A stretch of DNA of 64,000 bases from Heterotrichella gracilis (Eukaryota; Sar; Xanthophyceae; Tribonematales; Xanthonemataceae). The translations under genes and the position numbers were made by a program. The DNA lies in assembly GCA_032358255.1 (NCBI GenBank), contig JAULBX010004666.1, forward strand, positions 1-64,000. The letters run 5' to 3'. The first letter of the stretch is position 1; each line of letters opens with the position of its first letter. Shown piece after piece: positions 6,601-60,404 of this stretch. Below the pieces are notes generated by a model. The model had not been told where the DNA came from. It worked only from the letters and a program-made list of their open reading frames with translations, and ran no database searches.

Positions 6601-9600
6601 CTTGTATGCTGCGCAGGTTTTGCCTGTCGCTGTGCCCTGGTTTTGCCATGTCCATTTGCGTATACGATAGTAACAACAACCCCTGCCACTGGTGATCCAT
6701 ACCTGATGCCAGATGCATGTCCCACCTGCGCAGGCCCCCTCCCCTGGTGCTGGGGCCCCAAGCTGCGCAACCTGACAATGCTGGTGGACAATAATCTCAA
6801 GCCGCTGCCAATCATATCCTGCACGTGTACGCAAAACCCTACTCCCCATTGAGCTGCCGCTTCATGCTTGGCCCTGCCACCTCCCACCTGCACACACACA
6901 CACTGCAATGTCCCCACAATTCTAACCCCTCCTCCCTAGAAGCCTGGCTGCTGGACCCCGGTTCCGCGCATCCCACCCCCCAGCCCACCCTTCCCGCTGA
7001 CACGCTGCTGTACATTTCTGCCCTCCCCCTCCCCCCCCCATCCCCCTCCCTATTACAACCCAAAGCCTTGCCCGTCTCCACACCCCCTCCACCCCCATCC
7101 CCCATTCGTGCAGACACGCTGCTTGACCCCTCTGGCCTGGAGCGGGTGGGCAACTACCGCACCCTTGACAGGTTCACGGTGCAGGGGGACGTCATCATCA
7201 AGCCATGCCCAGCAACATGCGCATCAGGATGTAAGGCTGCACACGGTTGGGCTTGCCAAATGGGATGTGTGAACCCTAGACGGTGGGACGTGCGCCTGCT
7301 GCCTCGGGCCAATGGTTTAGGATCAAGGGCTGTGGGCCTGCACACTGGGCCACATGGAGTAGGGTTGGCCAAGGGGGTACAGGTCTGGGTACCTTGAACC
7401 GTAACCCCTAAACGTGAGAATCGGCACCTGCATTTTTTGCACGGGTCCCCCATATGGCGTCATTGGTGTGTGGATCATGCAGAGCATGCTGGTGGCAATG
7501 CTGTCTTCATTTTCTGCCTCACTTCAAGATATTAGAGATAACAATACCACCGCAGGTGCTGCCAGCAAGCCAGTGTACCCTATCATGCGCCCACCCCCAT
7601 GGTGGGGCACGCGCACCGGCAGACCAGCCTCCACCACCACCGCCACCACCAACGCCACCTGGCCAAGCTTCCAGGGGCTGAAAGTGCTCAACCTTGGCCA
7701 GCACCCCTACTTAATTGGCGAATTCCCCGTGGCTTGGGCGTTAAGCAGCAGCTTCCCGTCGCTGATAGAAATGTGTGTGGGTAAAACATTAGCATGGTGT
7801 ATTGTGGTGCTCATGGCTGTATTACAAGGGTGGGATGTTGTTCATGTGGTGTTGAATCTGTACTGTTCAGTGACACCACCAGCATCACCCCTGACTGCAG
7901 AGACCCTAAACCCTAGACAAGATTACCACCCTGGAACCCTCAACCCTGGAATTCTTACCCTGCAGGGATCTGACCACCAGCATCACTCCTGGCTGCTGGT
8001 ACAACGCCACCCTGCACTACCCACAGCCCACCTGGCCCGCAATGGGATTCTTTGGAATAGGGCCATCCCCGGTCATGGACATCCCCGCAGAGCAGTGTGG
8101 TGAGTGGGCTGGGTGAAAGTTTGAAGCATATGCACGGATGTAACAGCGGTTTGCAGCCAACGCTGAAACCTTTACAAGTGACCTGTGCTCGCAGTGACCT
8201 TGCATGGACTCGGCCACTCGATATAACACAGGCTGTACACAATGCTGGAATGCCATCTGCAGGGGTGCATTTTGGTTACATGACATTTTCAAACATTGTT
8301 CTATAGATCATATAAAAGTATATGAAGTAGTACATAAGTTATGTGAAGTTACATGGTCCATTTGACAACTAAAACTACGCCATGCGCAGGCATTGTCTCC
8401 TCTGTTGACCTTGGATTCCCAGTCACCCTGGCTGGCTGGGCGGCCACCCGCAACACCACAGTGGTGTGCACCCAGCCATACGCAATAGTCAACTGGCAGG
8501 TCACACTGGCATCATGCACACCGCCCTACAACACCTTCTACCAGGTGGTTGCGATACGTGCCACGTGCGCAAACGGGGGGGAGATTGCGTGGGACCCAGG
8601 CTTCCAGGGCTGCGCCAATACGGTACGAGTCATTAATCCCAGTTGAACCCTAATTCATGATCCTTAAACACTTGACAGCAACTTGGCTGCGCCAATGGGG
8701 TACAAAACCCCATCCAAACCCAAAACCCAAAACCCCGTTGGGCGGCAGCTGTGTTGGTGCAGGCTGGGCATGTCGATGTGTGTGAGCATGCCAACTAAAC
8801 CCTAAGACCATAAGGTGTGTAATCCATAGATGCAGCAGCACCCTCAACCTGGTAAACCTAAGGGAATCAAGGGTCCAGGGTTTTGGGTGTGCACAATCCT
8901 CCACGTGGTGCACATTGCCCTCCAACCCTCCACTCCTCGCGCTCCCCAGGTGTCCCAGTTCGTGAGTGTTGGTGGCGACAGCGACAGCAGGCTCAGCGCC
9001 ACGCTGTACCGGCTCACACAGTCAGACGTCATGGCGCAGATAGGCTTCCCAGCGCTGCCCGGGCGTGACTTCACACGCAACATCAGGTAGGAGGCTGGGG
9101 TTCAGGGCTTGAAATTCAATCCTGTCATTGGGGGTGGTACATGTGTCTCTAACCCTTTTCCATACATCCCATGTCAACGATGCAACATCTGGTGCGAGGT
9201 TGGGGGTTGATTGCTTGATTCTAGGCATTGTGGGTGGTGCTTGTGTCTGTAACCCTGTCCATACACCCCTGCTTACAATGCATCCCCCACTCTCATCTCA
9301 GGACTGCTGCGTGCCCCGCTGGAACCCTAGCGGTAGGGTTTGGTGTGGCGCCTGCGCTGGGCACTGGGGTGGTTGGCGCCCAGCTGCTGTCTATCAAGTG
9401 CGCGGCAGCTACCACGGCAGGCAAGGAAACCCTACCAAAACCCTACCACCTGTGACTGGGTCGTGCTCAGAGGGTATATGCTGTTTTGATGGGGATTGCT
9501 GCACACAACTGCAGCAATTTTCCTCCTCTTTAATGTTTTTATTTAAAGTATCACTTTGTTTGTCATTTCGAATGTTTTGTATGTGAAGCATCTGTTTACT

Positions 9601-12600
9601 GCAGCCCATTTGCTGCATGGCAACACTCCCCATGTGCCGTGCTTTTGAGCCTGCGTGTGCCCCCCCGCCCATGCAGGTTTCCTGCGCCCACCTCCCCCGC
9701 CAGTGCCACCAGACACCCCCATGCCCCCACCACCCGCCGCACCACCACCTCCAGAGCCAGCGCTCCCCTTCGTATGGAGTGCGTGCACTACCTACTCCTG
9801 GCTACCCACACTGCAGTGCACCACGCAACCCTAAACCCTAAACACTGCACCCTGCAACCCGAAACCCCACGCACTGCACCCTTAACCCCAAGCCATCACT
9901 GCACCCTGCAACCCTTCAATCTTGTGATTGAGTGCATAGATCCTGCCTGCTCCAAATTGCCCCCTCTCGCCTACCTCGCCTAGTCCCCCATGGTCCCCCC
10001 TCCCCCCCTCCCCCCCTCCCCCTTCACCCCCTTGTCCTTCCACACCCAGTCCCCGCAGTACCCTTGGCTTTCTACGCCTGTGCTGACTGCCACACACACG
10101 TGCCACAACCTCTACTAGTATCAGTATCACTACTTTGCCCCCTCCACTCCCCCACCCTTCCCCACTTGCCCTGTGACCTGCTTCCCCACCTCAATCACCC
10201 ACACTCACCCACGCACCTTGTGCCTCATCCCCACTCCCATTCCCACTTCACCGTTCTCCACCCACAGTCCCTGCAGTACCCCTCGCCTACTACGCCTGCC
10301 CCGACTGCCCAGCCACCGAGCTCCAAACCGTCACCTGCTTTGATGGCCTGGTCATGTCAGCGCTGCTCATTTCGGCATCAGCAAGTTCCAATTATGGGTT
10401 CCCGTACCAGGAGGCCACACCCTCTGTTAGGGTCGGCAACCTGGGTGTGCAGTGCGATGACCCCAATGGCTTTGGGAGCTCAAGGCAGGCGCTGATGCCT
10501 GCAGTGGGTAGGTGGCGGGTGGTGGGTGTGATGGATGATTGGGTGTGGGGGGGGAAATGTGGTTGGTGGTGGGGAGGTGGGGTGTGGGGGCAATGTGGGG
10601 AGGTTGTGTAGGGTGTGGGGGAATCTATGCGTAGGCAACCTGGGCGTGCAATATGACGACCCCAATGGCTTTGGGAGCTCGAGGGAGGCGCTGGTGCCTG
10701 CAGTGGGTAGGTGGCTGGATGGGGTCAGGTGCGGGAGGGAGTGTGGTGGATGATGGTGGTCACATGGGTGGGCATGTTTGCCTTGTGCATTGCACCCTGC
10801 AAAGCAGTGTCAAATGAGTTGCACCAAAGCGCCCACCCGCCACAAAACCACAGGGTCCTATTTCTACCGTTGCACCAAAGCATCCACCAGCCACAAAAAC
10901 TACAGGGCGCTAGTTCTGCAATGAACAATACAACACTGCGTGGCACCCTGCAACCTCCTCCCCTCCTCACCCCTTCACCACCCCACACCCCGCGCACCGC
11001 AGACTCCTCTGGCCAGCCAGACCCCTTCGACTCGAATGCCCTCGATGTGCGGCCCCCGCCAGGCCAGATGTTCTTCAACACATTCACATACCTGCGCTCA
11101 TCCCCATACCCCGGATTGGAGGGATTCATGGGGGCCTACACGCATCCCGGGGAGCAGCTGACCACCTTCAAGTGTCCCGAAGGGATGTGGGGTACCGGCG
11201 TGCGCGCCAGGGGGGTGGATTACCATGGGAACAATATAATGGACAGCTTCCAGGTCCAGTGCACGATGCAGGGGGAATGTGAGTGCCGAGGGGGGGTGGG
11301 CGGGATGGTGTGGGGGGCGGAGGGAAGGGTAGGGCTGGATGTGCATGGGTGGCCAAGTGTAGGCAAGGCCATGGGATTTGTTGCCTGTCTGACTCCTTCA
11401 GAAGGTGTTGTCAGCATCTGTATCAGCAACTACTATTTGGTGGCGTACCCACACCCCCATCAACGCACAGATGCCACCATTTCCGGTTGCCAGCAGAATT
11501 GACCATTTTCGCCCCTGCCCCTTGGTGACTCCCCTCCCCTTGTGTCCCCCAGTCTTCTCCCCATGTACCTACGGCTACACATGGTATCCTGAGGAAGAGG
11601 CATGCCATCCGGAGGACTATGAAGCAGGTGAGACACACGCCCACACTACACCACATCAGTTTCATGGTCTGCGTATATGTCCTGCACCTAGGCATTCCTG
11701 TCACCTTATATGACCTGCACGCCTGGTTCTGCATCCCTGGGGAGCAATGCATGGTTCCCTCAGTTTTGACCCCACATCACCACCACCACCACCCGGCCCT
11801 CCTCCCCACTGCCACGCAGCCCCGCCACAGCCACCCTCGCCCATGCCCCCACCAGCCCCCCCCCTCCCGCCTGTCCCGCCCCCCTCTCCCGTCCCCCCGC
11901 CCGCGCCCCCTCGCCCACCCCCCGCGCCCCCACTTGGCTGCACCGACATGGATCCCGGCACCGAATTTTCCCCCTTGGCAGACTTCAAGGTGTGGCCGCT
12001 GGAGTGGGATGCCAGCGCCTTTGACTGCTGCAGGTGGGGACAGGAAGACAAATTAATTTAAAAATATGCCTGGTTCTGTAATGCCAGGCCCTGTACCCCT
12101 GGGGTCTTGTACCTGCACCCCCTGTCAGTAACTCCATGCGGCCAAGGGTAATAAGATAATAAAAGTACTACATTGGTTTTGCTCTGTATGCACCCACATG
12201 GGTGTCCATGTACTGCAGCTGTGCGCCGCAGATTGGCATGCGGACTAGTGGCACAATGTGCACCCACTGGCAAAGGGGGGGTGGTGGCAACAGGACGTGT
12301 ATCTACCAATTTGTCATTGCGTCTGCACAAGCGTGCGCTGTGTCCTGGCAACCATCGTTGTTCCGCACCTATGGACTCATCCGTCCCCTCCCTTCCCGCA
12401 GGCTGTGTGGCACCACCCCTGGCTGCCGCAACTGGATGTTCCTTGGATCCGATGACGACCTCAACCCTGCGCAGTGCATCTCGCTGCATGGGGCGGACCC
12501 TGGTGCCAAGGTGGCATCAGGCAATGGGCTGAGCGTGACTGGGTCCATCACAGGTGGGGACATATGGGACACATCCTGTGGCATGACACCTGGCGGGCAG

Positions 12601-15600
12601 GGGTGCAGGGGCGCACAGCCAGGGGAGGGATCCACTCCATGTGGCTGGATTTAGGGCTTACAAATCCTAATGAAGTTAATTAAGAATTTTGCTGGCAATG
12701 CCCTTCCCATGCAGCATACCAGTGTATCCCCGCATCACCACCATCAAACACCTAGTCCACCCCCACCACACCCAGTGTATCCCCGCATCACCATAATCAA
12801 ACATCCAGTTCATCTCACCACAGTAACCCATCCCCAGCACACCCAAATTATTCCTGTCCGCGCTGCCTACACAGGTGGCATTGCGGCCTCCCCCCCTCCA
12901 TCGCCCCACCCCCCACCCCCCAGCCCCCCTCCGTCTCCCCCCCCCAAACCCCCCAAGCCCCCTGCGCCTCCCCCAGGTACCATCCACATGCCACCTACTT
13001 TGCCAGCCACACAACCACCCTGCACCAAGCTTGGCTGCGTTTCTTTGTCTCTCCATCCAAACCACTGATTCGTCGTTATGCAGGCATCTCAGCACATGCA
13101 TGTGGGCACCTCTTTGTACCCAGCTTTGTTTGCATTAACAATATGACCCATTCTGGAACCGCGTCCGAATTGGTAGTTGTGTCCCCCTTTGCGTGTGCAG
13201 CACAGGCATTCATGGAAAGTAGTACATAATTATACACCCAAGCGTGTGTGCACCCTGTTGAACCGCAGGAACAATACGACTAAATTACCCATATTGCAGT
13301 AAAAATGCAACTAATTTCCCCACATTTGCAGGCCCCATTCTCTACACCTGGGGCACCAGCTGGGGGGACTATGTGTTGGGGGGCCAGGACGAAAACGGTG
13401 CCCCGCTGTACATTTGCAGCACAGGCAACTTCCCCATGCCGGGCAACTACCTCCTGCTTCAGGGCACGTGCACCGCTGGCCTGAATGGGGGGACCATTTA
13501 CGCCCCTTGGCTCCCCACCCTGTTCCTGGCATCTGCCAACACCCCCCGCTGGACCACCATTAAGCCCCTTGTGACAGTGGACGGGGTGTCTGTGGGGTCA
13601 GATGGGGAGTTGGTGGCGGTGTGCCGGGGCGCGTACCAGGGGGGGGTGTACCCTGGGTGGACGGACGGGGAGGCGTGTCACATTGCGTGGAAAGGGAGCG
13701 AGGTTGTGTTGGCGGAGTTTCAGTGGCTGAGCTTGCCAGGTAGGTGGTGGGAAGTTCTCGCATTTTCCCGATATTCTGGTATCCTGGATTTTATTCAGGT
13801 TACTCTTTAAATTCAAATAATACAATCTAGGCAATAATTTATCGATCTATCAAAATAATGAGATGATCTATTTAAATGTATACAAGTACAAGTATAAAAC
13901 AGGTTTTCCACTCAAATGTATTGTGACCAGAGCAGCCCATGTGGCCTGAATGACTCAATATCTGCATGGCTTTGCCCATGGCCTTGCAAGGCCGTGCACA
14001 TGCTGTGTGTTGCTAGTGCGGCGCACACTGTGGCTGAGCCAGTATAGGGTCATCTATTAAGCTCTCATGCACATACTAAGGGAATAGGAATGTGTTAATA
14101 TGTGTTCATTCATCGATTTGTTTCTGTTAGCAAGACCTGACAGCTGCTGTGTGGTTGTGGTGCAGCAAACGCAACCGCCTCCGGACCAGTCCTGCAGTAC
14201 GGTGAGTGATAATGCACCGCAGGCCATGCCCTAGCTATACCCTGAATCTCTCTGGCCATTGCATACACAGTCACACCAGCGGATGTGCATGAAAGCGAGG
14301 CGATAAAACGCCCCCACATGCCAATTATCAGTGTGAATGAATGGGTGCGCATCACATTGTGCCTTGCGCTGCCCCTCGCCGCCCATGCATGCCCCACCAT
14401 TAAACGGCCCAATGCATGGACTCGTAGTGTGGCTCTGCGTCATGCCCCCCAAGCCATGCACCGTGGTGTGCCCCACCTCTGCACCCCAGCAGTGGTGGTG
14501 TTAAGAATACAAGCCAGGAGATTCCTGGTTGACAGTACTTACGTCTCTGCTTGTACCCTCACTGCATGCAATCACAGTTGGATTGGAAAAAGCCACAATC
14601 AGCAACATGAGTAATGAAGCGACGCCATCCCCACACTTCTTTTGTTAGATTGCTTCTTCAAGCGCCATGTCACCCTCCCCGCTTTTTTGGCACATGTCTA
14701 TTCAATCCCCCTGGCATTCTCCCCTTTGTCCCCGCCGCCAAAGCCTCACCCGCGTCCCCCCGCCCCCACAGTCCCCACAACCCCCATCGGCGGCTGCGAC
14801 AGCTGTGCCGGCAGCCAGGTGCTCGCCCGCACATGCCCAGGCAGCGCCCTGGTGGTGCAGTGGACGGTGTGGGGCACTGCGAGCGGCACACCCTCATCCG
14901 AGCCCTTTGTTGGCAAGGTTGGCTTCAATTGCAGCGATGGCACGGTGCTCAGCTTCCCCATCCAGGATGACAACAGCTGGTTGCTGGACTCGTGGTACCC
15001 GCCCACGCAGGTACTGTCTGCATGTTGTCAATCCATTATGCAACTATCATGACGGGAATCAAAGTTGGCAGAAAAGATGAGTCACTACGACAAAGGAATA
15101 CATTATATCGGATTCCTAGAATCATCACAATGTGATACAGTATCTAATGCACGTGCGAGTGTCACAAAAGCACAGTGCTCACTTGGCACAGTGTCACTAA
15201 TAAGCACAGCATAGGCATCACAACAACAAAGTTGACTACATAATAACTACAGTAGTAACTCCAATCCAAAGCAACAGCTTACCTGCCTGCCCTACTACCT
15301 ACCATCATGTAGTCAACAGCATTTGCATGTTGACAACATCCTAGATCATTGTACATCAGGTATACGTATAGTGATCGTTATAACTACCTGACTCCCGATC
15401 CCTTGCCCCGCAGTTCACCCCCCCTGGCAAGCTGCGCGTGTTTGCGCAATTCACGGCACAGGCAGCGGACAACCCCTACTTCATGGATGCATTCATGGGG
15501 TTCAGAACCCCCGTCCCCACCAACCTAACCACTTTCTCGTGCCCAAGGGGAGCGTTTGTTAAGGGTGCGCGGGCAAGGAGCATGGACAACATTAATGGGG

Positions 15601-20635: not shown

Positions 20636-23600
20636 ATGATGGAGGGTTTTGGGGGCAGCAGCAAACCCTTTGCCAACCCTAGCCAGGCGCCAGGACAGCT
20701 TTCCAGACCAGGGTGGCACACCAGGCATGCCTCACACGTCAGGTCATGTCGCCCACCCCTCACCCTAGCAAGGGTTGCACGCGGGGGGAGTTTTGGCAAA
20801 AGCAAAGGGGATGCAGAGGAAAGCTGGCAAGGGGGGGTGCTGCAAAATTCAAAGCAGGGAAGATCACCCGCTGCTAGCCGGAGCCCTGCACAGCCCAAAC
20901 CCCCTGCCACAACCCCACCAAGGGGTACTAACATCACCTCCAATGGTAGCCGACTGGGGAGGGGAACCAGCAACAACACCGTTACTGGTGGGCAAGCGGG
21001 GAGGGAAGACCCGCAAGCATGGCGGGGGCGGTACCAGGAGCAGCAGGTGATTCCTCATCCAACTGCGCTTACGTGCAAGTTCAATGTTTGTTTAAAAACT
21101 GTGAAAAAAAAGGAAAGAAAACCAACCCTCGCTCAGTTTTATTTGTTTTGCCACTAGTATTCCAGAAGTTGTGTTTAAAGCAGCCAGATCGGCTGCCAGC
21201 TTTGCAGATACCACTCCAAGTGTTTGCCATTATCATTTATGTATATACGAGCAGAATTACTTTTCTTTATCATCAGGGGTACAGTGGAGAAAATGCGGCA
21301 CCGTGGTGTTTTGCCGTCAATTTTACAATAACAATTTCCTTTCATCACTGCCCATCAGGGGTATTACGATGATGAAGATGAGGACGATAGGGAGGAGCAG
21401 GAAGGCAGGCAGCAGAGTAATCGGCAGCCACGAGGCAGGCGCGGGGTTGCGCCCATGGCATCTGTGGTTGCGCAGCTTCAAGGGGGGGATTCAGACGATC
21501 AGGGTGCACGCTTTGGCCAGGAGTTTGACATGGCTGTGAGGAGCCTGCAGGTGGGTGGACCCTAGCTAAGGGTTTTGCAAAGTGGGACAAACGGCTGTGA
21601 GCCTAAGGATTTTAGGAGCTGAATGCTCTAGCTAAGATTCTTGACTGGTTTTTAGGAGTCGGAGGGGATGGGAATGGACTGAGCCAAGGATTTCAGTGAC
21701 ACTGCCACAGTAGTATCCGCCTGACCAGTGCCGCAAGTGTCCAAGCCATGCAAACACACCCTCCCTCGCCATGCCACTCCACCACGGAGCCTGCCTGCGC
21801 AGTGCGTGGATGCCTCAAGTGTATACACCATCACCATCACCACCCCCCACCCCCTCAGGCCCGTCTGAGCAGTGCCGTGAATGCCGAGCTTGAGGAGGAA
21901 AAACATGCGCTGCAGAGGCTGTACACAAGGTGACAACCCTACCAAAACCCTGAAATCACCCTGGCAGTACCCTAGCAGTACCCTAAGTAAGGAAGAGGGA
22001 CAGGCGCTGCAGAGGCTGTACACCAGGTGACAACCCAAGCACTACCCTCACATTACCCTAACTATACCCTAGCAATAATCTAAGTAAGGAGGAAAGACAG
22101 GAGGTGCAGGGCTGTATACAAGGTGGAAACCCAAGCGGTACCCTAAAATCACCCTAGCAGTATCGGCTGCATGAGGAGGTTTCAGCAAACCCTTGACCTT
22201 TAGCAAACCCATAGGCGTATAGTACACCAAAGAGTATGTCATCGCTTCATCCCCGCGAGAGCTCCCATCCCGGCTGCGCAATGAGGTTCTACACACCCTT
22301 CGAGATTTTACCCTTTCATTTCTTTCTTTTTCGCCCTTTGCAAATATCAATCCCTGCAGGAGCTCCCTGTCCCGGCTGCGCGAGGAGGGTGTAGTGCTGA
22401 CTGACCTGTCTGGGGCACCAGGGGGGGAGCTGTATGGCGACCAGGTGTGGGTGTTCTCGCCGACGCCACGTGGCGGCGCCTCACGCACCCGCGCAGAGCT
22501 GCCCTTCCACCGGTTCTCGCAGGTGGGGGGCATGCAGGGCTTGCATATATAGTGATCTATTGACGCTGAAATTAATATCAATATTAATATTATTATTTAT
22601 TAATTGTTTAAGGTGATTGGTCACAACATCGTGAAGGGGCCTGCCTAACAAAGCACCTATAGCGCTTATCTATAGGCTGGTGCATTTTGCTATTTATTGA
22701 TTGATGGAATGTCATACTCAGGTGATCGTTGATAACATGACATGCTCAAAGGGGGACAATAAATGTATGTAAGGTGCGGGCGTGGTTTCCAGTGCCTGCC
22801 CACTGTTCCCACTTGGCGTCACATGCACCCGCACCTGTCACTCCCAGAGGGATACAGCTGATCGACCCCCAGAAACAAACCGGTACAAGTGGAAGACATA
22901 ATGACTGTACCTAGTGTCAGAAAAATGGATTCTGAAGAAAAACACCGGTGTTCCCAGGGGGATACCGTGCTGCTGAGCTGGATCGATGACAGGGGTAAAG
23001 TGCACCGTCAGCTCAAGGGGGGAACACCAGGGGGGGATGACGGGGAGTACCGCGGCATCGAGGGCACCCTGCTGGATGTGAAGCGGGGGGGGCTGAGGGT
23101 GGTGGTGGACAGGCGCACGTCAGACTGGCTCACGGACTCGGGGCTGGGTAAGGGTGTGGCAGTGGTGGGGATGGGGTGTGGGGGTTTGTGGCGGGGTTAT
23201 TTTAAATCACACCAAGCAAAGCAGTTGGCAGACCGTGGGCAATATTATATCAATAGAAAAGTCATTGGTTGCTGCAGCTAAATACCTCTGGGTAGTGCCT
23301 ACACCAACAATCTGACTAGAAATTACTTCCTGGCCCTCTCCATCCCCATGCACCGCCTGCAACTAATTACTTCCAACCTGCAAATATCCTCAATTATAAT
23401 GGACTTAATACCACATCAATCAATCGAAGACTATAACAATCTGACTATAATTTGATTGAAGGTTTGCCTGCATTCAACGTCATTTCATGGTTTTTGTTTA
23501 TTAGTTCACCCCTCCCTTCTTCCGCCTTGCAGTGCATGGGTGGCGCCTGGACCGCTTGCTTCAGGACACCACCGCCAGGCGCCAGCTCACAGCGCTGCAG

Positions 23601-32100: not shown

Positions 32101-32352
32101 AGCATGGAATGCTTGCCAACTGCTCTTTTGCTGCTGCAGCTTTCTTCCCATCGGCCCTTTGTGTTGGGGGAGCGCATCACTGTCCAGGGGGTGGGCACAG
32201 GAGTTGTGGAGCACATCGATTTTGCCCGCACCGTCATCCGTGGGGATGATCTGGCCCAGATCTGCATCCCCAACAAAACCATTGTGGAATCTGTCATCAC
32301 AAAGTACAGCGTCAACTCAGGCAGCGGGGTTGTGGTTGGCCCAAACACATAG
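29112..32352 (+). CDS. MscS-family mechanosensitive channel, C-terminally short paralog
   Basis: Six exons keep frame: 29112-29447, 29773-29980, 30686-30773, 31119-31267, 31483-31607 and 32140-32352, giving about 372 residues. The N-terminal about 45 residues are rich in His, Arg and Pro and look like an organelle-targeting peptide. The Gly/Ala-rich pore helix follows (GVGCLGVGLAAHSM, about residues 275-290), then the MscS beta domain with RPFVLGERITV, RTVIRGDDL and IPNKTIVESVI. Three exon lengths (88, 149, 125) are identical to the tandem paralog at 33730. A D8 tract lies in exon 2. The frame stops after SGVVVGPNT, and the C-terminal alpha/beta domain of the paralog (two further exons) is absent. 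It may be a truncated or failing gene. Confidence 0.78.
30097..30132. repeat. Head-to-head telomere-like junction
   Basis: Two to three TTTAGGG units run directly into CCCTAAA units through a central TTTAAAC. The arrangement is an inverted repeat in the orientation of a telomere-to-telomere join. It lies in an intron of the first channel gene. Confidence 0.75.
30324..30362. repeat. GGCATT/GGCATC microsatellite-like repeat
   Basis: About six imperfect hexamers of the CGGCAT/TGGCAT type lie in an intron of the first channel gene. Confidence 0.6.
31577..31684. repeat. Copy of the pore-exon end with CCCTAAA filler
   Basis: GATCAC(C/T)AATGCCATCGC at the exon end (31577-31611) recurs at 31651-31684. 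Three CCCTAAA units lie immediately between them. Confidence 0.8.
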
Positions 32353-48569: not shown

Positions 48570-50740
48570 ATGCGTGCCATGGAGTCTGAGCTGGGGCTGC
48601 GGAACAACGGGGGAGGTGAGGGAAGCCATGAATACACCACACAGCACACAAAACTTGCACACTCAAACCATCCATACACCACACACGTAGGCATTGTGGG
48701 CCGGCGCAGGGGTATCTTGTGCCGCAATGGTGCATGGCACAGCGTCCTCCCTGCTGTCGTTGGTAAAAGGCTTTAGAGGCGTCTGGATGCTAACCAGGGA
48801 AGACCTTATGTACTAGCAGTGACCCATTGTGCAGTCCGCCATGCATGATTTGCTCATACGATTGCAGGCCTGACGTGCCCTCATACCCCCCCCCGTTAGC
48901 CCATGGCCCTAATACCTCCCCTTCCCCTCACATGACTGTTCAGGGCCCAAGCCCTCCACCGTCCCCTCCTCCTCCTCCCCCTCTCTGGCGCCCACCACCA
49001 ATGATGGCAATGGCACCTTTGCCCTCCTGGTCATCAACTTCGCTGTGTTCATGCTGCAGCATGCTGCACCCGCGCTGCTCTCCACCCTGGCGCTGTCACA
49101 CTCATACCCACACTGGTGAGTATGTGATTCTCTTTGGTCCCCACTTCCCATGCCGGCAACAGTACCTTTGCCCTCCTGGTCATCATCGTTGCTGTGTTTT
49201 AGGGTTTTCATGCTCCACTCGCGATGCTGTCCACCCTGGCGCTTTCACGCTCATACCCGCACCGGGAAGGCGATTCATGATTTTCATGTCAATGAACATG
49301 TTGCTGCGCACGCCATCGCCATTGCACGCGGATATGGATGGAGATGTTTAATGGCGTTGGAGGGTGAATTGCGCAGTAGCATGCCATCCATTGCTACCAC
49401 CCAAGTCGACTGCTCAGCAGCACATGCATCTGCGCCCTCACCGTTGGCATGACCCTTCTTTCAACCTCAACCATAGCTAATACACGCCATGCGCTACACT
49501 CTTCATTCTGCTGCGGAGCATTTTGCATGCCCCAGACACCTGTGTGCCATGTGGCAATCCTGATCCGCCCCAGCCCCCTTTAGCTCCCCATTTCCTTTAT
49601 ATCTCCCGTCCCTTTTGACCCAAACCGCTCCCTCCCACCCTCACACCCCACCTGTCAATCCCCCTCTGTCCCCAGGTGGCAGTTCCTGACCTGCACCTTC
49701 TGCCACCACGACTGGGCACACCTGTCAGGCAACGCATTCAGCCTGTACGTGTTTGGGCGCATAGTGGAGGAGGAAGAGGGGGTGGCGGGGGTGTGGGGCA
49801 CGTACCTGGTGTGCGGACTGGGTGAGTGGCAAAAGGGAGGGCACAGGGCGCATCCAGCCCTGGGTGGATCATAAGACCCTAAGATTTGGAACCCTATACC
49901 CTACACTTGTAATGGAAGTGCATTGGTCATGTGGACATACAAGGCCGCCTAGTTGGAAGCATGAAATAGTTGGCATGTATATGCACCACACCCTGCACTA
50001 TATGGGAATGGATACGTGGGTGGTAGAGAGCGCCTGCCACATGGGCAACCAGGCACAGTGCTGATGCTGAAACCCTAAGCTAGGACCTCCCCCTCATGCA
50101 GGCGGCTCCATCGCCTCCTACCTGTCCACCCCTGGCACCGCCACCGTCTCCCTTGGCGCCTCCGGTGCCATCTTTGGTCTCTTCGTGGTGGGGGTGCTGG
50201 CCAAGCTTGCACGTGGGCTGAATCTGAGGAGGGCACTGGAGGTGGTGGTGCTGGGCCAGTTTGTGGTGCAGCAGGTGGTGGGGGTGAGTGAGTAAGGTGG
50301 CTGTCACTCGCATGGCATGCGGCATAAATGGAATTGGCTGTTTGTGAGTGCGGCTGGGCTGTCCGGAGGTTTGCGTGTCGTCACTGTCAGTAGAGGGCCC
50401 AATAGTTGTCGCGCAGATTTATTCCCCACATGTCTGTGCATCCTGTCACTTCCCCCATCATACTGCGTCCATCCACGGCATGCCGTGCATACGCACCACA
50501 CACCGCACCATGTGATGCCGCGCTGCGGTACATGCACACAGCACAGCAGCCCCACCACGGCACTGCCCACCAGCTGAGCGCACCCCCTGTTGCCCGCAGG
50601 AGATCCATGCGCAGGCTGGTGGTGGTGGGGTGGGTGGCGCGCTGAGTGGTGTGCGGGTGGGGCATGTGGCGCACCTGGCTGGTGCACTGGCTGGTGTGCT
50701 GCTGGTCCTCATGCTCACGCGCCTTCCTAAGGGGGAGTAA
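48570..50740 (+). CDS. Rhomboid-like intramembrane serine protease, plastid type (paralog 2)
   Basis: Five exons join in frame: 48570-48615, 48944-49115, 49676-49821, 50102-50283 and 50600-50740, giving about 228 residues. The order is a first span (FALLVINFAVFML), then WWQFLTCTFCHHDWAHLSGN with the TM2 His/Asn pair (about 88 and 92), FGRIVEEEEG, active-site GASGAIFGLF (Ser about 142), LEVVVLGQFVVQQVV, and VAHLAGALAG with the catalytic His (about 207). This closely resembles plant chloroplast rhomboid-like proteins of the RBL10/RBL11 type. The N-terminus in this model is short and lacks a plain transit peptide, so the true start may be further upstream. It is a divergent paralog of the gene at 44178-46571. 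Confidence 0.85.
49006..49264. repeat. Copy of rhomboid exon 2 interrupted by a telomere-like motif
   Basis: The end of the real exon (49006-49117, CCTTTGCCCTCCTGGTCATC ... CTCATACCCACACTGG) is repeated at 49155-49264. In the copy the coding match is split by TTTAGGGTTTT at about 49197. The copy ends CGGGAAGG and has lost the GT donor. Confidence 0.75.
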
Positions 50741-51707: not shown

Positions 51708-54700
51708 ATGCGGGGTCATCAATTGGTGCTCTGCTGCGTCCCTGCCGGCCTGCAGTCCCTGCAGCATGGCATGCGCCCTCCATGCCACAAACAGGTGTGC
51801 TGCCCACCACCCCGCCCTCAAAGCCACCTGTTCTGCTTGAAACACGATAGGAGTGAGGTGATTTTGCACCATATCTGCTCATGCCCCGTCTTTGGCTACG
51901 ATTGTTCTGTGGCAGCTGTCTCATGTAGAGACATTGCGTAATGCACCACGAAAGGCAGCACTATTTGCTCATCTGTGGGTTGGCCACACAGCGCTGGGTG
52001 CAAAGCATGCACAGCACAGTGGCGTGTGACTGGTCAGGGGTTGTCCCTGTCGGTGGGCTCTACTGAGTACTGAGTCTACTCCCTTCCCTCCCCGCAGGAG
52101 CCTGTCGGTTACCCCCCTGCCAGCGGCGGTCCATGCGTATCAGGGCCAGTCAAGTCGCTGCGGTGCGCTCATAGGCATGGAAGGATAGTACTGTAGATAG
52201 CAATAGGGGCTAAAATAGCGGCATAACACCTGTTTCAGTGACTCAAGGCCATGTGCTGTATGCTTCTCTGCACTGCAGGTCCCTAGCATCCTGCTGAACA
52301 CACGATGGCACAACCCTTGCCTAGGTATACACTGGTGGCATGCCTTAGGTTGAACCCCGGCCCTGTGTAGCTGTGGACTATCACTGTCATCACCTTGCGG
52401 TCCGTCCCTACCTTAGAATTTGCTCACCGGCTAGGGTTTTCCCCGCAGGACGGCCTTGCGGTTCCTGCAGGCAGCGTGAGCGTGGTGCTGCTGGCAGGGG
52501 GAGTGGGCAAGCGCATGGGGGTAAGCCCAACCCTAAACCCTGAACCCTAAACCTAAACAGCGTGAGCGTGGTGCTGCTGGCGGGGGAAGTGGGCAAGCGC
52601 ATGGGGGTAAGCCCAACCCTAAACCCTGAACCCCTAACCCCTAAACCATGAGCATGATGCTGCTGCGGGAGGTGTGAGTAAGCGCATCCAACTGCATGGG
52701 TACACCCGCCTAGTTCACACAGAACTTTGCCCTAAATATGGGTATGAGCTCGCTGTTAACGGTTGTAATCTGTCATTTAATGAGAATAAAATTTGCTGTG
52801 ATTTGAGGTATTTAATCTGAAGAATTTCATTTCTGTCCTCCCCGTTTCAGGCTGCCATCCCCAAGCAGTACCTCCCCCTGCGCGGTGCCCCCATCGCCAC
52901 CTACAGCCTGCGTACCTTTGCAGCAATGGAGGAGGTGGGGGAGGTGGTGGTGGTGTGTGACCCAAGCTGGAGGTGGGTGGGGAGCAGGGGGGGGCGGTGA
53001 CGCGTGTGGTGGTGGTGGGGACACTGTTGGTGGTGTTGCGCTAGCAATATTGTATGTGCAGAGTTGCAATTGCGGGGTGGATGGGTTGGAGCCAGTGACT
53101 CCTGCTGGCTAGACCCTACCCACTGTGCTACTACTAGAGGCGGCAGCAAGGTCCAAACTGCTGGGGTACTCATCCGCTGGTCTGCAGTGGATAATGCTGT
53201 GCTAGTGCCATCCATACGCCATCCACACCCCTTGGGCAGTAGTGCGTCCCCCACCCATGTGGCTCCCTCCCAACCACCGAATGTACCCTCGCCCCCTTCC
53301 TGTCCCCAGGGACATTTTCGAGTCCATCCTCCCCTCGCTGCCCCGGCCCGTGCCCATCACCTTTGCGCTGCCCGGCAAGGAGAGGCAGGACAGTGTGCTC
53401 AGCGGGCTACAGGTGGGGGGTTGGTGATTGGGATGGTGATGGTGGGGTTGGGCGGGGAATGTGGTGGTGATAGTGGGGGCTGGGTAGGGGTTGGGGATGG
53501 CTCAACCGCACGCAGCGTTGCACCACCCGATAGGCGGTGGTTTCAAGGGTGTGCCCCTGGTCCTTGCATTCCAGACGGTGCATCCCCATGGGGATGACCA
53601 TGTGTGGGGTGGCGCATGCTGGGCAGGGGACCAACCTTGATCTGCCTGTGCCCACATGTCCATTGCCGATTGTGTGCTCCTTATTTAGTACTCAATACTG
53701 ATTGCTGATACTCATGACTGATTGCTGACTGTGTGCGCCTTACTGATTGATGATTACTGATTATCGATTACCGATTTCTGAATATTGATCACTGATTACT
53801 GACTGTGTGCTCCTCCCTCCCCTCCCCAGGCCATCTCCCCCTCCGCCTCCCTTGTGGCGGTGCATGACTCAGCGCGCCCCCTGGTCACGGCACAGGACAC
53901 ACGCAAGTGCCTGGCGGATGCGGCAAAGGTGTGTGGTGGTGTGCATGTGGGTGGGGGGAGGCAGGGATAAATGCACAGGAGGTGCTGGTGAGTGCACGTA
54001 TATGTTGATGCATGGGTGGTGTGTGGGCATGCAGTGGCCAGCATCAGTCATGAGGGAAGATTCCACGCCATTGGCCATCTCGATGGTCCCGCAGTGCAAC
54101 TGCCATCCACAGCCATGGCGGTTCGTTTGCCAACGTCGGGCCACTAAGGGTTGAGACGTTGCCATCATGTGCATCCCATCATGTGCATCCCATCATGTGC
54201 GACCCATCATCATCATCCCATCATCATCATCCCATCAAGTGCATCCCATCATCTTTGCAGCCCTCCTCTCATCCGCTGTGCACGTGATCCAGCATGCTAC
54301 CTCCGTCACCCCCTCCCCTCTCTCCTTCGCGCCCTGGTACCCGCTGGGTATCATGCCCACCCTCTGCCCCATCTCATCCCGTACCACCGCCACCAAGACA
54401 CCACACTCACCTCACACAGGTTGGCGCCGCTGTGCTTGGTGTTCCCGTGAAGCCCACCATCAAGGAGGTTGACAGCAGCGGCAGGGTGGTGCGCACGCTC
54501 AACAGGGCGGTGCTGTGGGAGGTGCAGACGCCGCAGGTGGGGGGGGTGGGGAGGGGTGTCATGTGGTGGGGTGGTGGGGGGGCATGCGGCAGGAGTTCGC
54601 ACGAGCCATGGAGTTATTGGTGTGTGTGTGGCGTGGGGTGTCCGAGGCCCATCACAGAAAATCCTGCAGCCAGGTGTTGCTGACCGTCATTCACAGGCCA

Positions 54701-55497
54701 CATTCACGCGCTCGTTCACATGCGCAACCTTGTCTTACCCACCACACTGGCTGAGCTGTATCACCTTTTATGCCCAATCCATTCCCTGGGTCTTGATCCC
54801 TGATCAGACGCATCCCCGCAGGTCATCCACCCCCACCTGCTGCGCACCAGGGATGATGGATGGCGTTACGATTGTGTGCATATTTCGTTTCCTTGATGCT
54901 AATCCCTGTTCTGCATCCACGCAGGTCATCCGTCCCCAGCTGCTGCGCACTGGCTTTGAGCTGGTTTCTTCCCAGGGGCTGGAGGTGACTGATGACGTAT
55001 CGATTGTGGAGGCCATGGGGGGCCAGGTGGTGGTCACGCCAGGGGCATACACTAACATCAAGGTGGGGTTGGGGGGGTTGGATCCTTTTATTATATTAGC
55101 CCCCAGCATTGCTCGTGGCAGAGGGTGGCTATGCGGGTGCATGCTTTAATAGCATGGCGGGTTTGAGTTTTGACGCGAACCCACCATGCAGGTAGGTTTG
55201 ACTTTGAGGGCTTGGGTTTTGGGTACCCCTGGTGTTGTCCCCACCGGCATGCACGTTGGATGGCTTGCGCTCACGCCAAGCAACCCTTCCTTCACACGTC
55301 ACCATACTGCAGCCCTCATGCATGTGCACACAACTCGGCTGCGCAATTTTACAAGCAAGGCATCGCTGCCGTGCCCTATGCCCCTTACAGTGCCCCGGAC
55401 CGCCCCCCTTTTTCTTCAGGTCACCACCCCTGACGACCTGTCCATTGCTGAGCGCTTTATGGACGAGGCCCAAGAGAAGCAGGCGGTGGCAGTTTGA
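51708..55497 (+). CDS. ispD: 2-C-methyl-D-erythritol 4-phosphate cytidylyltransferase, plastid
   Basis: Nine exons keep frame and give about 312 residues: 51708-51852, 52098-52162, 52449-52520, 52851-52972, 53310-53412, 53830-53928, 54420-54536, 54925-55062 and 55420-55497. The enzyme joins CTP to methylerythritol phosphate in the plastid isoprenoid (MEP) pathway. Family signatures appear in order: [10 protein letters not shown] (CTP loop, about 85-94), [24 protein letters not shown] (156-164), [28 protein letters not shown] (234-241), VTDDVSIVE and NIKVTTPDDL. About 70 Arg/Cys/Pro-rich N-terminal residues ending RIRASQVAA look like a plastid transit peptide. The first two exons rest on phase and transit-like composition and are less sure. 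Total length is close to that of plant IspD precursors. Confidence 0.92.
52473..52687. repeat. Three copies of the IspD CTP-loop exon end
   Basis: The exon end plus donor (AGCGTGAGCGTGGTGCTGCT ... ATGGGG|GTAAGC, 52473-52529) recurs almost unchanged at 52559-52619 and decayed at 52648-52687. CCCTAAACCCTGAACCC-type filler separates them. Copy 1 is preceded by AAACAG, giving an acceptor-like AG. Confidence 0.85.
53686..53812. repeat. Imperfect ACTGATT short repeats
   Basis: An intron segment consists of many variants of TACTGATTGCTGA/TATTGATCACTGA. It ends in GACTGTGTGCTCC, a phrase that also occurs earlier as GACTGTGTGCGCC. Confidence 0.6.
54167..54258. repeat. CATCATGTGCATCC minisatellite
   Basis: CATCATGTG(C/G)ATCC and CATCATCATCATCC units alternate for about 90 bases in an IspD intron. 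Confidence 0.75.
54811..54951. repeat. Copy of an IspD exon start with its acceptor
   Basis: CGCAGGTCATCCACCCCCAC then CTGCTGCGCACCAG (about 54817-54851) copies the acceptor and start of the exon at 54925 (GCAGGTCATCCGTCCCCAGC then TGCTGCGCAC). The copy soon diverges. Confidence 0.75.
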
Positions 55498-56624: not shown

Positions 56625-59600
56625 ATGTGTCTTTTGAACGAGCATGCCGAGCCGGGCATCGGGGTCATGGCTTCCACCATAGACTGCCTGCCTGACCACT
56701 TGCTGGCACACATATTCGGACGACTGGAGGTCAAGGAGCGGGTTCAAAACCTGAGCTTTGTCTGCCGCCGCTGGGCGGCCATCCTGTCGGCTCCCACCGA
56801 CGCCTGGAACCAGCTTGGCTTCTGCGTTGGGTGGCCCCTGCTGGCCTCGCCCGCCGTGCAGGAGACCTTTGCCGCCTGGATGGACCGCCGGGCAGGGGGC
56901 GTACTCCACCTGGAGCTCGCCAAGCGCCAGGTAAACCCTGCGCCCTCGCGTGTTTGTAGACTGGCTGTGCACACTGCAAATACCACCCACCAGAACGATA
57001 TCCATGTACACATGCCCTAGGGGTTCACCCCAGTGGTTCATCCATGCCAACACTGGGTCAATTCAACAGGTGCCTTTTGGCACTCTGCATACCCACTGCA
57101 CCCCTGGGAGCCTGCACCGCCCACCCAGATCATGCACTTGCCAACAACCTAAAGGGGGGGCCTCGCCTGCATCCATGGGATGGAGAGCCCTATTATGCCG
57201 TCTCCCTTGTGAAACTCTAAACTGTACACCCTGCTATGCTGTCTTCCTTGTGAAACCCTAAACTCTAAACCCGGTTATGCTGCCTCCCTTGTGAAACCCC
57301 AAACCCTAAGCCCTATGTGCTGCCTCCCTTGTGAAACCCCAAACCCTACACCCTATTGTGCTGCCTCCCTTGTGAAACCACCTTCTCTCCCCTGCCCAGT
57401 GCCCCAGCTACCTGTACCACGCCCTCATCCTGTCCCTGCGTGGTGGGAGGATAGAGCACCTGGCGCTGGGCAACAGCATGGAGGCAACCATCGCTGCAAA
57501 CCTAGCTGACCTCCCCCGCCTGACCAGCCTCACCTTCCGCACCCAGGTAGGGTCTAGGGTGAGGGTTTTAGGGTACACCATGGTGCCTACCAGTGCAGCC
57601 AACCTGGGCCACCTATCTTGCCCTGCCAGCCACACCTTCCAAAACCAGCTAGGGCCTAGAATTTAGGACTGCAGAGGATTTGTGGGTCCAGTCTTCCTCC
57701 TGTGAGGGCGACTACATGCCATGGTTCTCCAGGTTTCCTCCTACCAAGGCAACTGGACAGACCTGTATACATGAAATCATCGAAAATAAAAGTATTTTTG
57801 TTACTTTCCCAGGTTTCCTCCTACGAGGGTGACTACATGTTGCGTGCACTGAGCAATCTCACCCGCCTGGAGACGCTGTCCACATCAGCGCTGTACGGGC
57901 ACTACGTGGGCAGGGGGCAGAACTTCTATGCGGTGCCCTCATGGGTGGGGCGCATCACGGGGCTGAGGTGCTTGAGGCTCAGGGTGGCTGAGGCGTCCTA
58001 TGGCCAGCTCACAAACCTCACGGTACGGGATCAGGGTTCAGGGTTTAGGGTTTAGGGTTTAGGGCTTTGAGGTGCCTGCGCCTGAGGGTTGCGGAGGAAT
58101 GCTACGGCCAGCTCCCAAACCTCAAGGTGCGGTTTGGGTTCAGGGTTCAGGGTTTAGGCAGAATGCAGACACGAGCACACCCCGTGCATGTGATGCCATG
58201 TGCGTCAAACCCTGTGCCGTGCGTGACACCCTGCATGTGATGGCGTGCCCTCTGTTGGGGGTTTTGGGTGCCCTGGCATATAATTCGACAGATGTGCACG
58301 TCACATGGCATAGCATTGACTGGTGCGCATGCCTGTTGCAGGGTCTGACTGTACTGCGGGAGCTTGAGCTCACCCTGGGGAGCAATGCAAACCAGGTGCG
58401 ATGATGGGCATCCTGCATGTGAACCGACCAAACGCCCCATGGGATGCAACACCCGGCATCCCCTTATCCATCGACTAGTACATCCTTCCTTTCCTACTGA
58501 CGTAGCACGGCATGTCATGCAATACCTTGGCCTCACCTGGCGGTAAGGCGGTTTGTTGTTTTCCTCTTCCTTGCCAAGGGTGACTGTAATGCAGGCATGC
58601 ATGCACCTCATCCATCCATCAAATTGAACCACGCGCCCACCCCCTCCACCCCCTCCACCAGGGCTTCCCCTGTGCCCTGACCTCCCTCTCCTCCCTGGAG
58701 CACCTGTCCCTATTCTACTTGAGATCAGTGCACAGCCTGGAGCTGCCACATGGCATGGGCGCAGCGCTGCCCCGCCTGACATCGCTGGAGCTGGTGGCGG
58801 AGCACGACCCCCCTGTGCACCTCAACCTGGCTCAGCTCACCTCGCTACAGGGGCTGCAGGCGCTGGTGCTGGCGAGCATGGAGATGGAGGTGGGGACTGA
58901 AAAATGAAACTAATAAACATAAAAATGTATAAGTATAAATAGTAAAGTAGAAATAATGATAAAATTAAAGGAACCAGAACGAATGCTTTGGTAAATTGGT
59001 GGGGCAGGGTTGGCCGGAAGGTGCAATCTCATGTTGGGTGCATCCCACCATGCCTCGGCAAGGATCACACATGCAAAACTGGCGCTACTACCTACAGATG
59101 CATGGTGGAACAACCTCCTCATCACCAATTTTTTATCAGTCGCAGAGTATTGGAAAAGTAGGTCGAGGTGGTAGTGTGTAGATGTTCTTGCAATATTGAA
59201 CCTCGGTGGACCGTCTCCCCTAGAGCGTGGCAGCCATGCCCACCTTCTCTCCCCTTGTGCAGGCCTTCCCCCCCTCCATCCTGTCCCTCACCTCCCTCAC
59301 CTCCCTTGACCTGCGCGGCAACAGCTGCGGCAGGCTGCCACCTGGCATCACCACCCTGCGCCACCTGGCGCACCTGGGCCTGGCTGGCAACCGGGCAAAG
59401 GTGCTGCCGCTGGAGGCCGCTACCATGGGGGAGCTGTGCCTGCACGGCTGGGCGCTGGAGGTGCGAGGCCGCTACCATGGGGTTTAGGGTTGGTGAGGAG
59501 GCTATGGAAGCTACGCTTATACTGCCCCATGTGACTAGGGCTACTGGTGGGGCGCATTGGGCGGTGGGTACGCTGTGCAGGTGCAGTCGCATGCGGCAGG

Positions 59601-60404
59601 TAGATGCAGCCACATGCATGCGCATGCTTGTTGTTATTGCCTGGGGTGCATGGCTGCATGCGTGGGAACACTCTGACACTGTCTGAAAGCTGGTGATTGT
59701 TTCTGCTGGGGTACAGTACTGCAGGACTGCGTGTGGGGGGCACGCTGGAACTTTCTGGCAGCTGGTGTGACCCCCCTTCTGCTCCCGCAGGCGCATGGAT
59801 TGAGTGGCCAGGGGAGGAGCCCCAGCCTGGTGATGGAGGGAGGGGGCGGATGGGTGTACAGGCTGCAGGTAGGGCCATTCAGCACACACATGACCATGCA
59901 CCCATGTTATCACCTGCCGCCGCTGGCCATTGCTCTGCTTCTTGTGATCCATAAAAAATTCTGGCAGCACACCCAAAGCCTGAAATAGCCTTGGCTGTTC
60001 CTGCACCGGCTTGCTGCACACACATCTGCCACTGGCCATCCCTTGTCACATGACCCCCTCCACCCTACACCTCAGCCCTCTCAGCCAACTCCCTCCACAG
60101 GCCTCCTCCAAATGGCCAAGTACCTTCAACGTACCCTGCAATTTTTTTTTAAACCCTGAACCCTAAACCTTCCCAATTCCCTCCACAGGCCTCCTCCCAT
60201 TGGCCCACCGCAGCCGGCCCCGGCCCCCCCGCCGCCCCCCGATGGGTCACATCCTTTGAGTTTGCCACCGAGGACCAGGTGCCTCCCTCCCAGATGTGCA
60301 GCCACTGCGACCCAGGGGCTGTGCAGCGCGTGAATGCATTCTTTGCACGTCAGATTGCCACAGCTACTGACGAGTCCTCGCTGAGCGGGAGGACGCATTT
60401 CTGA
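56625..60404 (+). CDS. F-box / leucine-rich-repeat protein
   Basis: Eight exons, all phase 0, give about 478 residues: 56625-56930, 57400-57546, 57813-58022, 58342-58395, 58662-58889, 59263-59460, 59791-59868 and 60189-60404. The N-terminal F-box reads IDCLPDHLLAHIFGRL then VCRRWA, the usual SKP1-binding motif of SCF ubiquitin ligases. Leucine-rich repeats follow (LPRLTSLTF, LTRLETLSTSAL, LRELELTLGS, LPRLTSLELV, LTSLTSLDLRGN, LRHLAHLGLAGN), which would bind the substrate. A second in-frame ATG at 56667 directly before the F-box is an equally good start. The C-terminal about 70 residues (from SSHWPTAAG) hold no recognised domain. The target is unknown. Confidence 0.87.
57186..57382. repeat. 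About five tandem units with CCCTAAA-like cores
   Basis: A unit of about 45 bases, TATGCTGCCTCCCTTGTGAA then ACCC(C/T)AAACCCTA, is repeated about five times in the first intron of the F-box gene. It runs up to the acceptor region of exon 2. Confidence 0.85.
57692..57841. repeat. Two upstream copies of an F-box-gene exon start
   Basis: The acceptor and start of the exon at 57813 (CCAGGTTTCCTCCTACGAGG then GTGACTACATG) are echoed at 57692-57720 and 57724-57757. Confidence 0.7.
57964..58131. repeat. Copy of an F-box-gene exon end with TTTAGGG filler
   Basis: The exon end 57964-58026 (TGAGGTGC(T/C)TG ... GGCCAGCTC(A/C)CAAACCTCA) recurs at 58068-58131, including a GTGCGG donor-like site. Four TTTAGGG-type units lie between. 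Confidence 0.85.
59412..59490. repeat. Short exon-edge copy followed by TTTAGGG
   Basis: GAGGCCGCTACCATGGGG from the exon at 59412 recurs at 59465-59482, inside the first bases of the intron. It runs directly into GTTTAGGGTT. Confidence 0.7.
60090..60206. repeat. Copy of the last exon start of the F-box gene
   Basis: CTCCCTCCACAGGCCTCCTC then CAAATGGCC at 60090-60119 copies the acceptor and start of the exon at 60189. AACCCTGAACCCTAAACC lies between the two. Confidence 0.8.

Follow-up and report, generated by a model that had tools for sequence, protein, structure and literature searches.

The stretch of Heterotrichella gracilis DNA described here, positions 1 to 64,000 of contig JAULBX010004666.1 (hereafter the window; C49:1-64000 of a 68.5-Mb genome), carries a series of spliced genes in which the edges of exons, together with their splice sites, recur as copies in the adjoining introns, often with sequence resembling the telomere repeat between the copies. 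A Pfam scan of four window proteins, cut by hand from the gene models, identified IspD (4.9e-59), rhomboid, MscS, AAA_11/AAA_12 helicase, F-box, and LRR domains, and one fused gene model contains the rhomboid, IspD, and F-box/LRR domains. Two MscS paralogs adjoin each other, gene 1 at 29112-32349 (recognized by its likeness to gene 2) and gene 2 at 33660-38617 (recognized by Pfam), and the array at 4554..4709 lies in a gene that we take to be papain-like. A first-pass annotation of this sequence had described exon-edge copies in about eighteen places in seven genes; our count rose to 23 exon-edge arrays between 4554 and 60205, with the figure of seven genes coming from reading.

Altogether we analyzed 294 kb, divided into the window, a genome sample, and a held-out set of 50 kb that was scored with the model frozen. 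Genes were predicted with our own ab initio gene finder, which was self-trained on 244 kb, made up of the window and 18 usable stretches of 10 kb each, and converged on donors resembling CAG/GTGAGT and acceptors of the form YGCAG/G (the slash marks the splice junction). Its output comprised 345 complete introns in the 244 kb, with a median intron of 308 bases and a median exon of 146.5 bases, and 416 predicted introns in the full 294 kb. One error was evident in MscS gene 2, where the paralog shows that an exon ends at 36284 and not at 36222. The IspD part of the fused model aligns unbroken to the solved chloroplast IspD 2ycm, which we take to be the Arabidopsis enzyme, across the junctions at 52520 and 54925, and this indicates, independently of the gene finder, that the exon-proximal splice sites are used there. 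Direct repeats were sought at spacings of 20-400 and scores of at least 17, with telomere-like and simple repeats masked beforehand, and were compared with shuffled controls in which dinucleotides were approximately kept. One bacterial locus (L009), L014, and eight telomere-centered loci (L001-L008) were left out of all counts.

The 244 kb yielded 210 direct-repeat pairs, compared with 1 in the shuffle. The window by itself gave 52 pairs and the held-out set 43, against 0 in the shuffles of each; exactly one copy was exonic in 33 of the held-out pairs, neither in 5, and both in 5. The shuffles, with repeats masked, rule out chance or low complexity as the source of the copies, and assembly error is unlikely because the copies are not identical (median identity, 0.86). 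The pairs in the 244 kb resolved into 106 arrays: 67 at an exon edge with one copy outside the exon, 16 with both copies exonic, 16 within introns, 2 intergenic, and 5 exonic. The held-out set added 24 arrays (19 exon-edge, 4 with both copies exonic, 0 intron, 0 intergenic, and 1 exonic), so that only 2 of 130 arrays were intergenic. At this score the window contained 30 arrays, with 21 at junctions, 2 with both copies exonic, 6 within introns, and 1 exonic.

Over all sets, 106 of 832 exon edges had a copy, which lay in the intron in 97 cases (approximately 12% of exon edges) and past the predicted gene end in 9. Intron copies of their own edge were visible for 23 of 188 edges in the window, 51 of 502 in the genome sample, and 23 of 142 in the held-out set. 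Given these similar rates, we conclude that the window is typical of the genome sample, and the phrase "repeated in one locus" in the first-pass annotation is not borne out, as the copies occur genome-wide. The first-pass annotation had also reasoned that the link to splice junctions would be chance if exon-internal or intergenic sequence showed the same rate of short tandem copies and telomere-like filler. We made this comparison at a score of at least 16, and the link stood: an edge was found in its own intron for 32 of 343 donors and 37 of 338 acceptors, compared with 7 of 270 intron-interior pieces and 1 of 167 exon-internal pieces. Donor edges matched against random introns gave an average of 1.3 matches per 345.

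Some excess at junctions is expected in any case, since a duplication inside an exon would be removed by selection while one across a junction would be spliced out. Our null combined geometry with this selection: the duplicated unit was taken to be as long as the full spacing, and all placements with one good splice site remaining were counted. Among arrays with a spacing of at least 60, 80 of 85 lay at junctions, compared with 42.5 expected; of these 80, 76 adjoin an intron, and the other 4 lie at gene ends. Left out of this null were arrays that were fully exonic or had both copies exonic (26 of 130), those with a spacing below 60 (6 junction, 11 intron, and 1 intergenic), and, in the introns-only form that gives 42.5 of 85, the one remaining intergenic array. 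A first version of the null, in which the unit was the detected homology only (12.3/85 or 19.3/83 expected), overstated the excess and was replaced. Even a threefold detection advantage would lift the expectation only to 62.8 of 85, and a decay simulation gave an advantage of just 1.2-1.4.

A test that makes no use of copies agreed with this result. Telomere 6-mers near intron ends covered 2462 bases, compared with 1529 ± 95 under rotation (337 introns), and the 236 introns without a detected array had 1148 such bases, compared with 768 ± 72. In the whole genome, AGGTRAG was followed by AAACCCTAAA at 4-34 bases 292 times and at 104-134 bases 122 times, and AAACCCTAAA stood ahead of TGCAGG 1110 times at near and 699 times at far distances (these counts take in overlapping matches at one place). 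Five of the far donor matches listed (on C25, C32, C41, C45, and C89) begin and end in near matches, as expected of two-copy arrays. The focus on splice junctions proposed in the first-pass annotation thus survives the null of geometry plus selection as well as the detection simulation, and we regard the junction excess as the firm part of our analysis.

The copies extend from inside the exon to slightly past the splice site, with a median detected exon part of 38.5 bp, and 84 of 106 come within 25 bases of the exon edge. At donors (31 edges), identity was 0.79 over the last 10 exon bases and 0.78 at +1 to +5 and dropped 5-10 bases past the splice site, to 0.57 at +6 to +10 and 0.37 at +21 to +25. 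Acceptors (33 edges) were less sharp and more gradual, with 0.66 over the first 5 exon bases, 0.51 at -1 to -5, and 0.36 at -26 to -30. The claim that copies keep the AG or GT is borne out for donors and less sharply for acceptors. Strict sharpness at +6 was weaker than it first appeared, as flanks were alike above the 95th percentile of controls in 11 of 25 donor copies and 15 of 28 acceptor copies. The claimed decay of copies with distance from the exon amounted to a trend: at the 26 multicopy edges, the nearer copy was better preserved in 16, the farther in 8, and 2 were ties (P = 0.15).

Intron flanks were homologous at 34 of 82 edges (82 of the 106 edges qualified, the remaining 24 having too little flank or a copy that stopped over 25 bases short of the edge), compared with 211-270 of 300 predicted for plain tandem duplication at equal divergence. 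Given this shortfall, more than half of the events look like an edge, a filler, and a second edge, and the remainder look like tandem units. Among the 104 edges with spacings within 60-260, 43 fell at 80-125, 13 at 126-179, 37 at 180-222, and 8 at 223-260. Pooled data thus show a bimodal spacing, but we do not hold to a sharp form of it, as the held-out set has a wide second peak. Intron-only arrays were mostly of short period, with 11 of 16 at a spacing of 20-53.

Telomere-like filler of at least 12 bases was present at 32 of 47 edges at spacings of 60-140 and at 14 of 57 at 141-260 (Fisher P = 1e-5). At the shorter spacings this amounted to 9 of 11 edges in the held-out set and 23 of 36 in the training set, compared with approximately 5% of matched intron pieces, and telomere 6-mers made up 24% of filler bases, compared with 3.5% in array-free introns. 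The filler motif is the host telomere repeat, TTTAGGG, which opens contigs C70, C140, C609, C717, and C770 as (CCCTAAA)n, and the genome encodes a TERT RNA-binding domain. No repeat family was found among the masked fillers in 244 kb, and a mobile filler family was rejected on the basis of only 5 weak matches elsewhere. In the window, at least 12 bp of exact telomere 6-mers occurred in 10 of 23 arrays (7875, 21893, 25912, 27317, 31576, 36244, 52474, 57474, 57966, and 60085), in keeping with the "at least ten" cases reported in the first pass.

Exon-edge arrays in the window, with the edge from which each copy derives.
Coordinates	Strand	Array	Spacing	Remarks
4554..4709	+	Acceptor-side copy 4554-4591 of edge of exon 4685	118	
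5290..5515	+	Donor-side copy 5490-5515 of exon end 5322	200	
7875..7996	+	Acceptor-side copy 7875-7898 of exon start 7966	98	CCCTAAA filler, 25 bases
10039..10309	+	Acceptor-side copy 10039-10091 of exon start 10277	218	Without telomere filler
10435..10709	+	Donor-side copy 10634-10709 of exon end 10507	199	Gene finder called the copy an exon
13179..13427	+	Weak match of interior of exon 13332 to upstream intron	219	Least certain member
21893..22156	+	Donor side of exon end 21929, SMUBP2-like helicase gene	~97 bp	Edge plus two more copies; degenerate telomere filler
25299..25455	+	Donor-side copy of exon end 25334	123	
25912..26179	+	Acceptor side of exon 26141, AAA helicase gene	110, 214 bp	CCCTAAA filler; farther copy better preserved
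26424..26684	+	Acceptor-side match of exon 26585	186	Weak; copy begins within exon
26947..27112	+	Acceptor-side copy 26947-26988 of exon start 27090	124	
27310..27591	+	Donor side of exon end 27362	102, 213 bp	G-strand filler
31576..31679	+	Donor-side copy of exon end 31607, MscS gene 1	74	CCCTAAA filler
36247..36513	+	Donor side of exon end 36284, MscS gene 2	78, 74, 75	Three more copies, CCCTAAA between
37621..37690	+	Donor side of exon end 37636	28 bp	Tandem repeat spanning junction, without telomere filler
38179..38320	+	Donor-side copy of exon end 38201	112	
48991..49265	+	Donor-side copy, 126 bp, of exon ending 49115, rhomboid-domain gene	149	Donor not kept
52474..52687	+	Donor side of IspD exon end 52520	86 bp	Unit of edge, donor, and CCCTAAA, x2.5
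54810..54950	+	Acceptor-side copy of IspD exon start 54925	103	Without telomere filler
57474..57638	+	Donor-side copy of exon end 57546, F-box/LRR gene	102	TTTAGGG-type filler
57688..57839	+	Acceptor-side copies of exon start 57813	80, 121 bp	
57966..58128	+	Donor-side copy of exon end 58022	104	(TTTAGGG)n filler
60085..60205	+	Acceptor-side copy of exon start 60189	88	CCCTAAA filler

Two of the 23 arrays (13179 and 26424) are weak and match inside the exon. In the intronic copy of the rhomboid exon (49130-49265), TTTTAGGGTTTT replaces exon bases, an arrangement suggestive of telomere-like DNA inserted into the copy itself. Other repeats of the window lie apart from exon edges: at 57188-57379, approximately five copies of a 41-bp unit with CCCTAAA-type spacers end approximately 20 bases before the acceptor at 57400, and this unit is intronic, near the acceptor, and not a copy of the exon. 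The sequences at 44066-44122 and 54162-54252 consist of ordinary tandem repeats with short units (11 bp and 14 bp) and lack the telomere motif.

Mismatches between exons and their copies (106 edges) were concentrated at the third codon position, with 190/1466, 185/1467, and 311/1453 at the three positions (13.0, 12.6, and 21.4%; P = 9e-11). This pattern is close to that calculated for a free copy and a constrained exon that changes mainly at silent sites. We conclude that the copies are free of coding constraint and drift neutrally and that they are not functional exons. Homogenization by gene conversion was set aside as unnecessary, since divergence by codon position fits free drift.

The two MscS genes share intron positions in a protein alignment. 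However, the array at 31576 has no counterpart at the same intron of the paralog, and the reverse is true of the array at 36247. Given shared introns with differing arrays, the arrays of this one comparable pair are most simply read as younger than the gene duplication, in which case they would not have created the introns. The pair is useful for dating intron changes.

As to how the copies arise, we consider it about evenly balanced whether error-prone repair or replication restart recurrently duplicates exon-intron borders. In such an event, a piece of exon edge would be copied locally along with its splice site, and in more than half of cases nonhomologous, often telomere-like, sequence would be placed between the old copy and the new one. 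The product would be approximately 100 bp longer, or approximately 200 bp longer in a second, mostly telomere-poor group. The gene would survive through use of the exon-proximal splice site, with everything beyond it spliced out, and the spare copy would then drift neutrally. With each further event the older copies would move inward, and introns would thereby grow from their ends. The copies, their filler and spacing, the neutral drift, the junction excess, and the spread over the genome sample are observed; the mechanism is inferred, namely that a break or fork is repaired, which of the copies is the new one, and what the filler derives from. From the interpretation offered in the first-pass annotation, we retain a junction-focused process, telomere-like filler, and intron lengthening, and we drop the single locus and intron gain from AGGT.

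Several points weigh against recurrent border duplication. The expected number of junction arrays varies with the unit assumed (12.3/85, 19.3/83, 28.1/86, or 42.5/85), all junction positions are those of ab initio gene models, and none of the repair steps was observed directly. Of the 106 copies, 22 fail to come within 25 bases of the exon edge, 9 lie past the gene end, and the fall-off of copy quality with distance is not significant (P = 0.15 over 26 edges). The intron flanks match in part of the arrays, which are then tandem repeats (34/82; for example, 52474 and 21893), and flank homology is present in 16 of 30 edges whose copies are at least 88% identical. The two spacing groups, clear in the pooled data, have ranges that were chosen post hoc, and the second is broad in the held-out set.

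A duplication directed at splice junctions, for example by breaks where transcription and splicing meet the exon border, could re-copy the exon edge as far as its splice site, add filler of telomere-like or other sequence, lengthen introns at both ends in steps of approximately 100 and 200 bp, and make much of the intron DNA of this lineage worn edge copies and filler; we advance this stronger version tentatively, as a possibility. Telomerase-mediated repair would instead fill in a staggered double-strand break at an exon border, duplicating the edge, and add TTTAGGG before joining, a route that has been proposed for interstitial telomeric sequences of mammals. The match of the filler to the contig-end telomere, the encoded TERT domain, and the richer 6-mer content of filler at spacings of 60-140 relative to array-free introns (24 versus 3.5%) all favor it, as does the array at 27310, whose G-strand filler terminates in TAGGGTTTAGGGTTT with its telomeric phase continuing into the exon's own GGGTTTG, like the "in register" bases of telomeric insertions in the available part of one report (PMC7215372). 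Target duplications at 6/130 rodent and 4/25 primate insertions, in the available part of another (PMC2246262), point the same way. Yet the filler is already broken up in fresh copies: the longest exact telomere run did not follow copy identity (Spearman 0.15, P = 0.26), it was just 6-9 bases in 7 of the 13 edges with identity of at least 0.93, and the 57 edges compared do not show the near-perfect repeats decaying with age that one-step insertion would leave. In addition, telomere 6-mers amount to less than 12 bp at 60 of the 106 edges, and the junction bias is left unexplained, as the intron share of human insertions fits random placement in the available text of PMC7215372. We give telomerase repair a minor but real chance; telomerase is unproven as the filler source, and filler templated from intron ends that were already telomere-like may be the alternative. 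It is unlikely, in our judgment, that ordinary tandem duplications or minisatellites arise everywhere and that those at junctions merely survive, through one intact splice site, where exonic ones are purged. Geometry alone would place half of the units across a junction (42.5/85), some arrays are plain tandem repeats, and the codon pattern shows neutral copies. However, the 80 of 85 observed exceeds even the 62.8 reached with a threefold detection advantage (1.2-1.4 in simulation), intron-only arrays are mostly short (11 of 16 below a spacing of 60), 2 of 130 arrays are intergenic, flank homology is mostly missing, and telomere motifs concentrate at intron ends even without arrays.

The motifs could also be a cause of duplication and not filler, if they were selected splicing signals (a C-rich tract, CTAAA near the branch point, or G runs by donors) that are fragile, so that stalled forks duplicate the preceding 100 bp. 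Telomere motifs do have their maxima within 40 bases past donors and between -20 and -60 at acceptors, the G-strand motif is depleted near acceptors, and acceptor fillers were 20 C-strand and 4 G-strand, compared with 12 and 9 at donors (Fisher P = 0.098). The acceptor C-strand excess may come from selection, since TTTAGGG just before an acceptor adds false AG sites. Against this, no motif follows the last copy at 36513 or 31679, flanks are nonhomologous at 48 of 82 edges, and the telomere-poor arrays of approximately 200 bp are unexplained, so we find this account quite unlikely. That the introns themselves were gained by tandem duplication, as the first pass had raised for segments containing AGGT, or from introner elements is very improbable. 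Donor and acceptor windows were alike (score of at least 20) in 18 of 404 introns, compared with 0.5 expected, but the splice sites stood at the same alignment position in 0 of the 14 matches listed. Nine of these 14 are in arrays classed as having both copies exonic, and two of those arrays (10435 and 36244) read as copies called exons. Intron positions are common to the MscS paralogs even where one of them lacks the array, the 244 kb yielded no family of fillers, and no clean intron gain was found in the 294 kb analyzed. We consider it most improbable of all that the copies are functional, as alternative exons or decoy splice sites under selection. The AG or GT is kept, and some copies resemble micro-exons (36401-36510). 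However, differences of 13.0 and 12.6% at codon positions 1 and 2 are as expected of free copies, longer pure telomere filler puts stops in every frame because of its 7-base unit, and the IspD alignment runs without the copies.

Changes in intron length are usually credited to transposons and small indels. With approximately 12% of exon edges carrying copies, intron lengthening by local duplication becomes directly countable here, with a built-in clock in the constrained exon and its free copy and a marker in the telomere-like filler. The finding also raises the question of why splice junctions would be preferred sites of rearrangement.

Two observations concern the assembly (G000) as a whole. 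The locus left out as bacterial (G000:C1:20001-30000) has 35.7% GC and intronless bacterial-type open reading frames, presumably NadB, a NifU-like protein, and a protein with a Bacteroidota-type secretion tail. Its contig, C1 (894 kb), probably stems from a Bacteroidota organism that either lives with the host as a cobiont or contaminates the assembly. No match to the RuBisCO large subunit was found in the whole assembly, which means either that the plastid genome lies outside it or that the organism is nonphotosynthetic; the IspD of the window is close to solved chloroplast enzymes. Taken by themselves, the TTTAGGG telomeres, the splice consensus, and this IspD would suggest a green alga.

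We found no report of splice-junction copies with telomere-like filler in the literature searched, which lacked most subscription papers, although several known systems share parts of the pattern. Minisatellites have head-to-tail units in common with our arrays, some of which reach at least three copies. They differ from the placement seen here at exon edges, from spacings that are mostly approximately 100 or 200 and not 20-53, and from flanks that are nonhomologous at 48 of 82 edges; repetition of the whole unit including its flank, as in a minisatellite, is not the general rule here (34/82), though single arrays such as 52474 show it. Intron gain by duplication has been described in potato, and Rogers (1989) and Hellsten (2011) are reportedly cited alongside that case. 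In the available part of the 2016 potato report, the duplication crosses an intron-exon boundary and the splicing signals are inherited from the parent structure (PMC4974935), both of which apply here; in potato, however, a new intron is made and an exon added, whereas here an existing intron is lengthened and the mRNA would be unchanged. Introners, as far as the accessible text of Gozashti et al. (2022, PMC9860276) describes them, are sequence families, some with 3-9-bp target duplications, in fast-evolving lineages including green algae. They likewise change introns genome-wide, but they are dispersed families, whereas here the fillers form no family (244 kb) and the duplicated piece is tens of exon bases. 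Closest in filler are interstitial telomeric sequences, in which the host motif is inserted at double-strand breaks, sometimes with target duplication or random sequence (PMC2246262; horse and human, PMC7215372; available parts of both). They too place the host telomere motif at interior sites. In those parts of the reports, target duplications are a minority, at 6/130, 4/25, and 3/66 loci, and the intron share fits random placement, whereas here exon-edge copies at splice junctions dominate and, unlike in a telomerase-type insertion model, the filler is degenerate even beside fresh copies.

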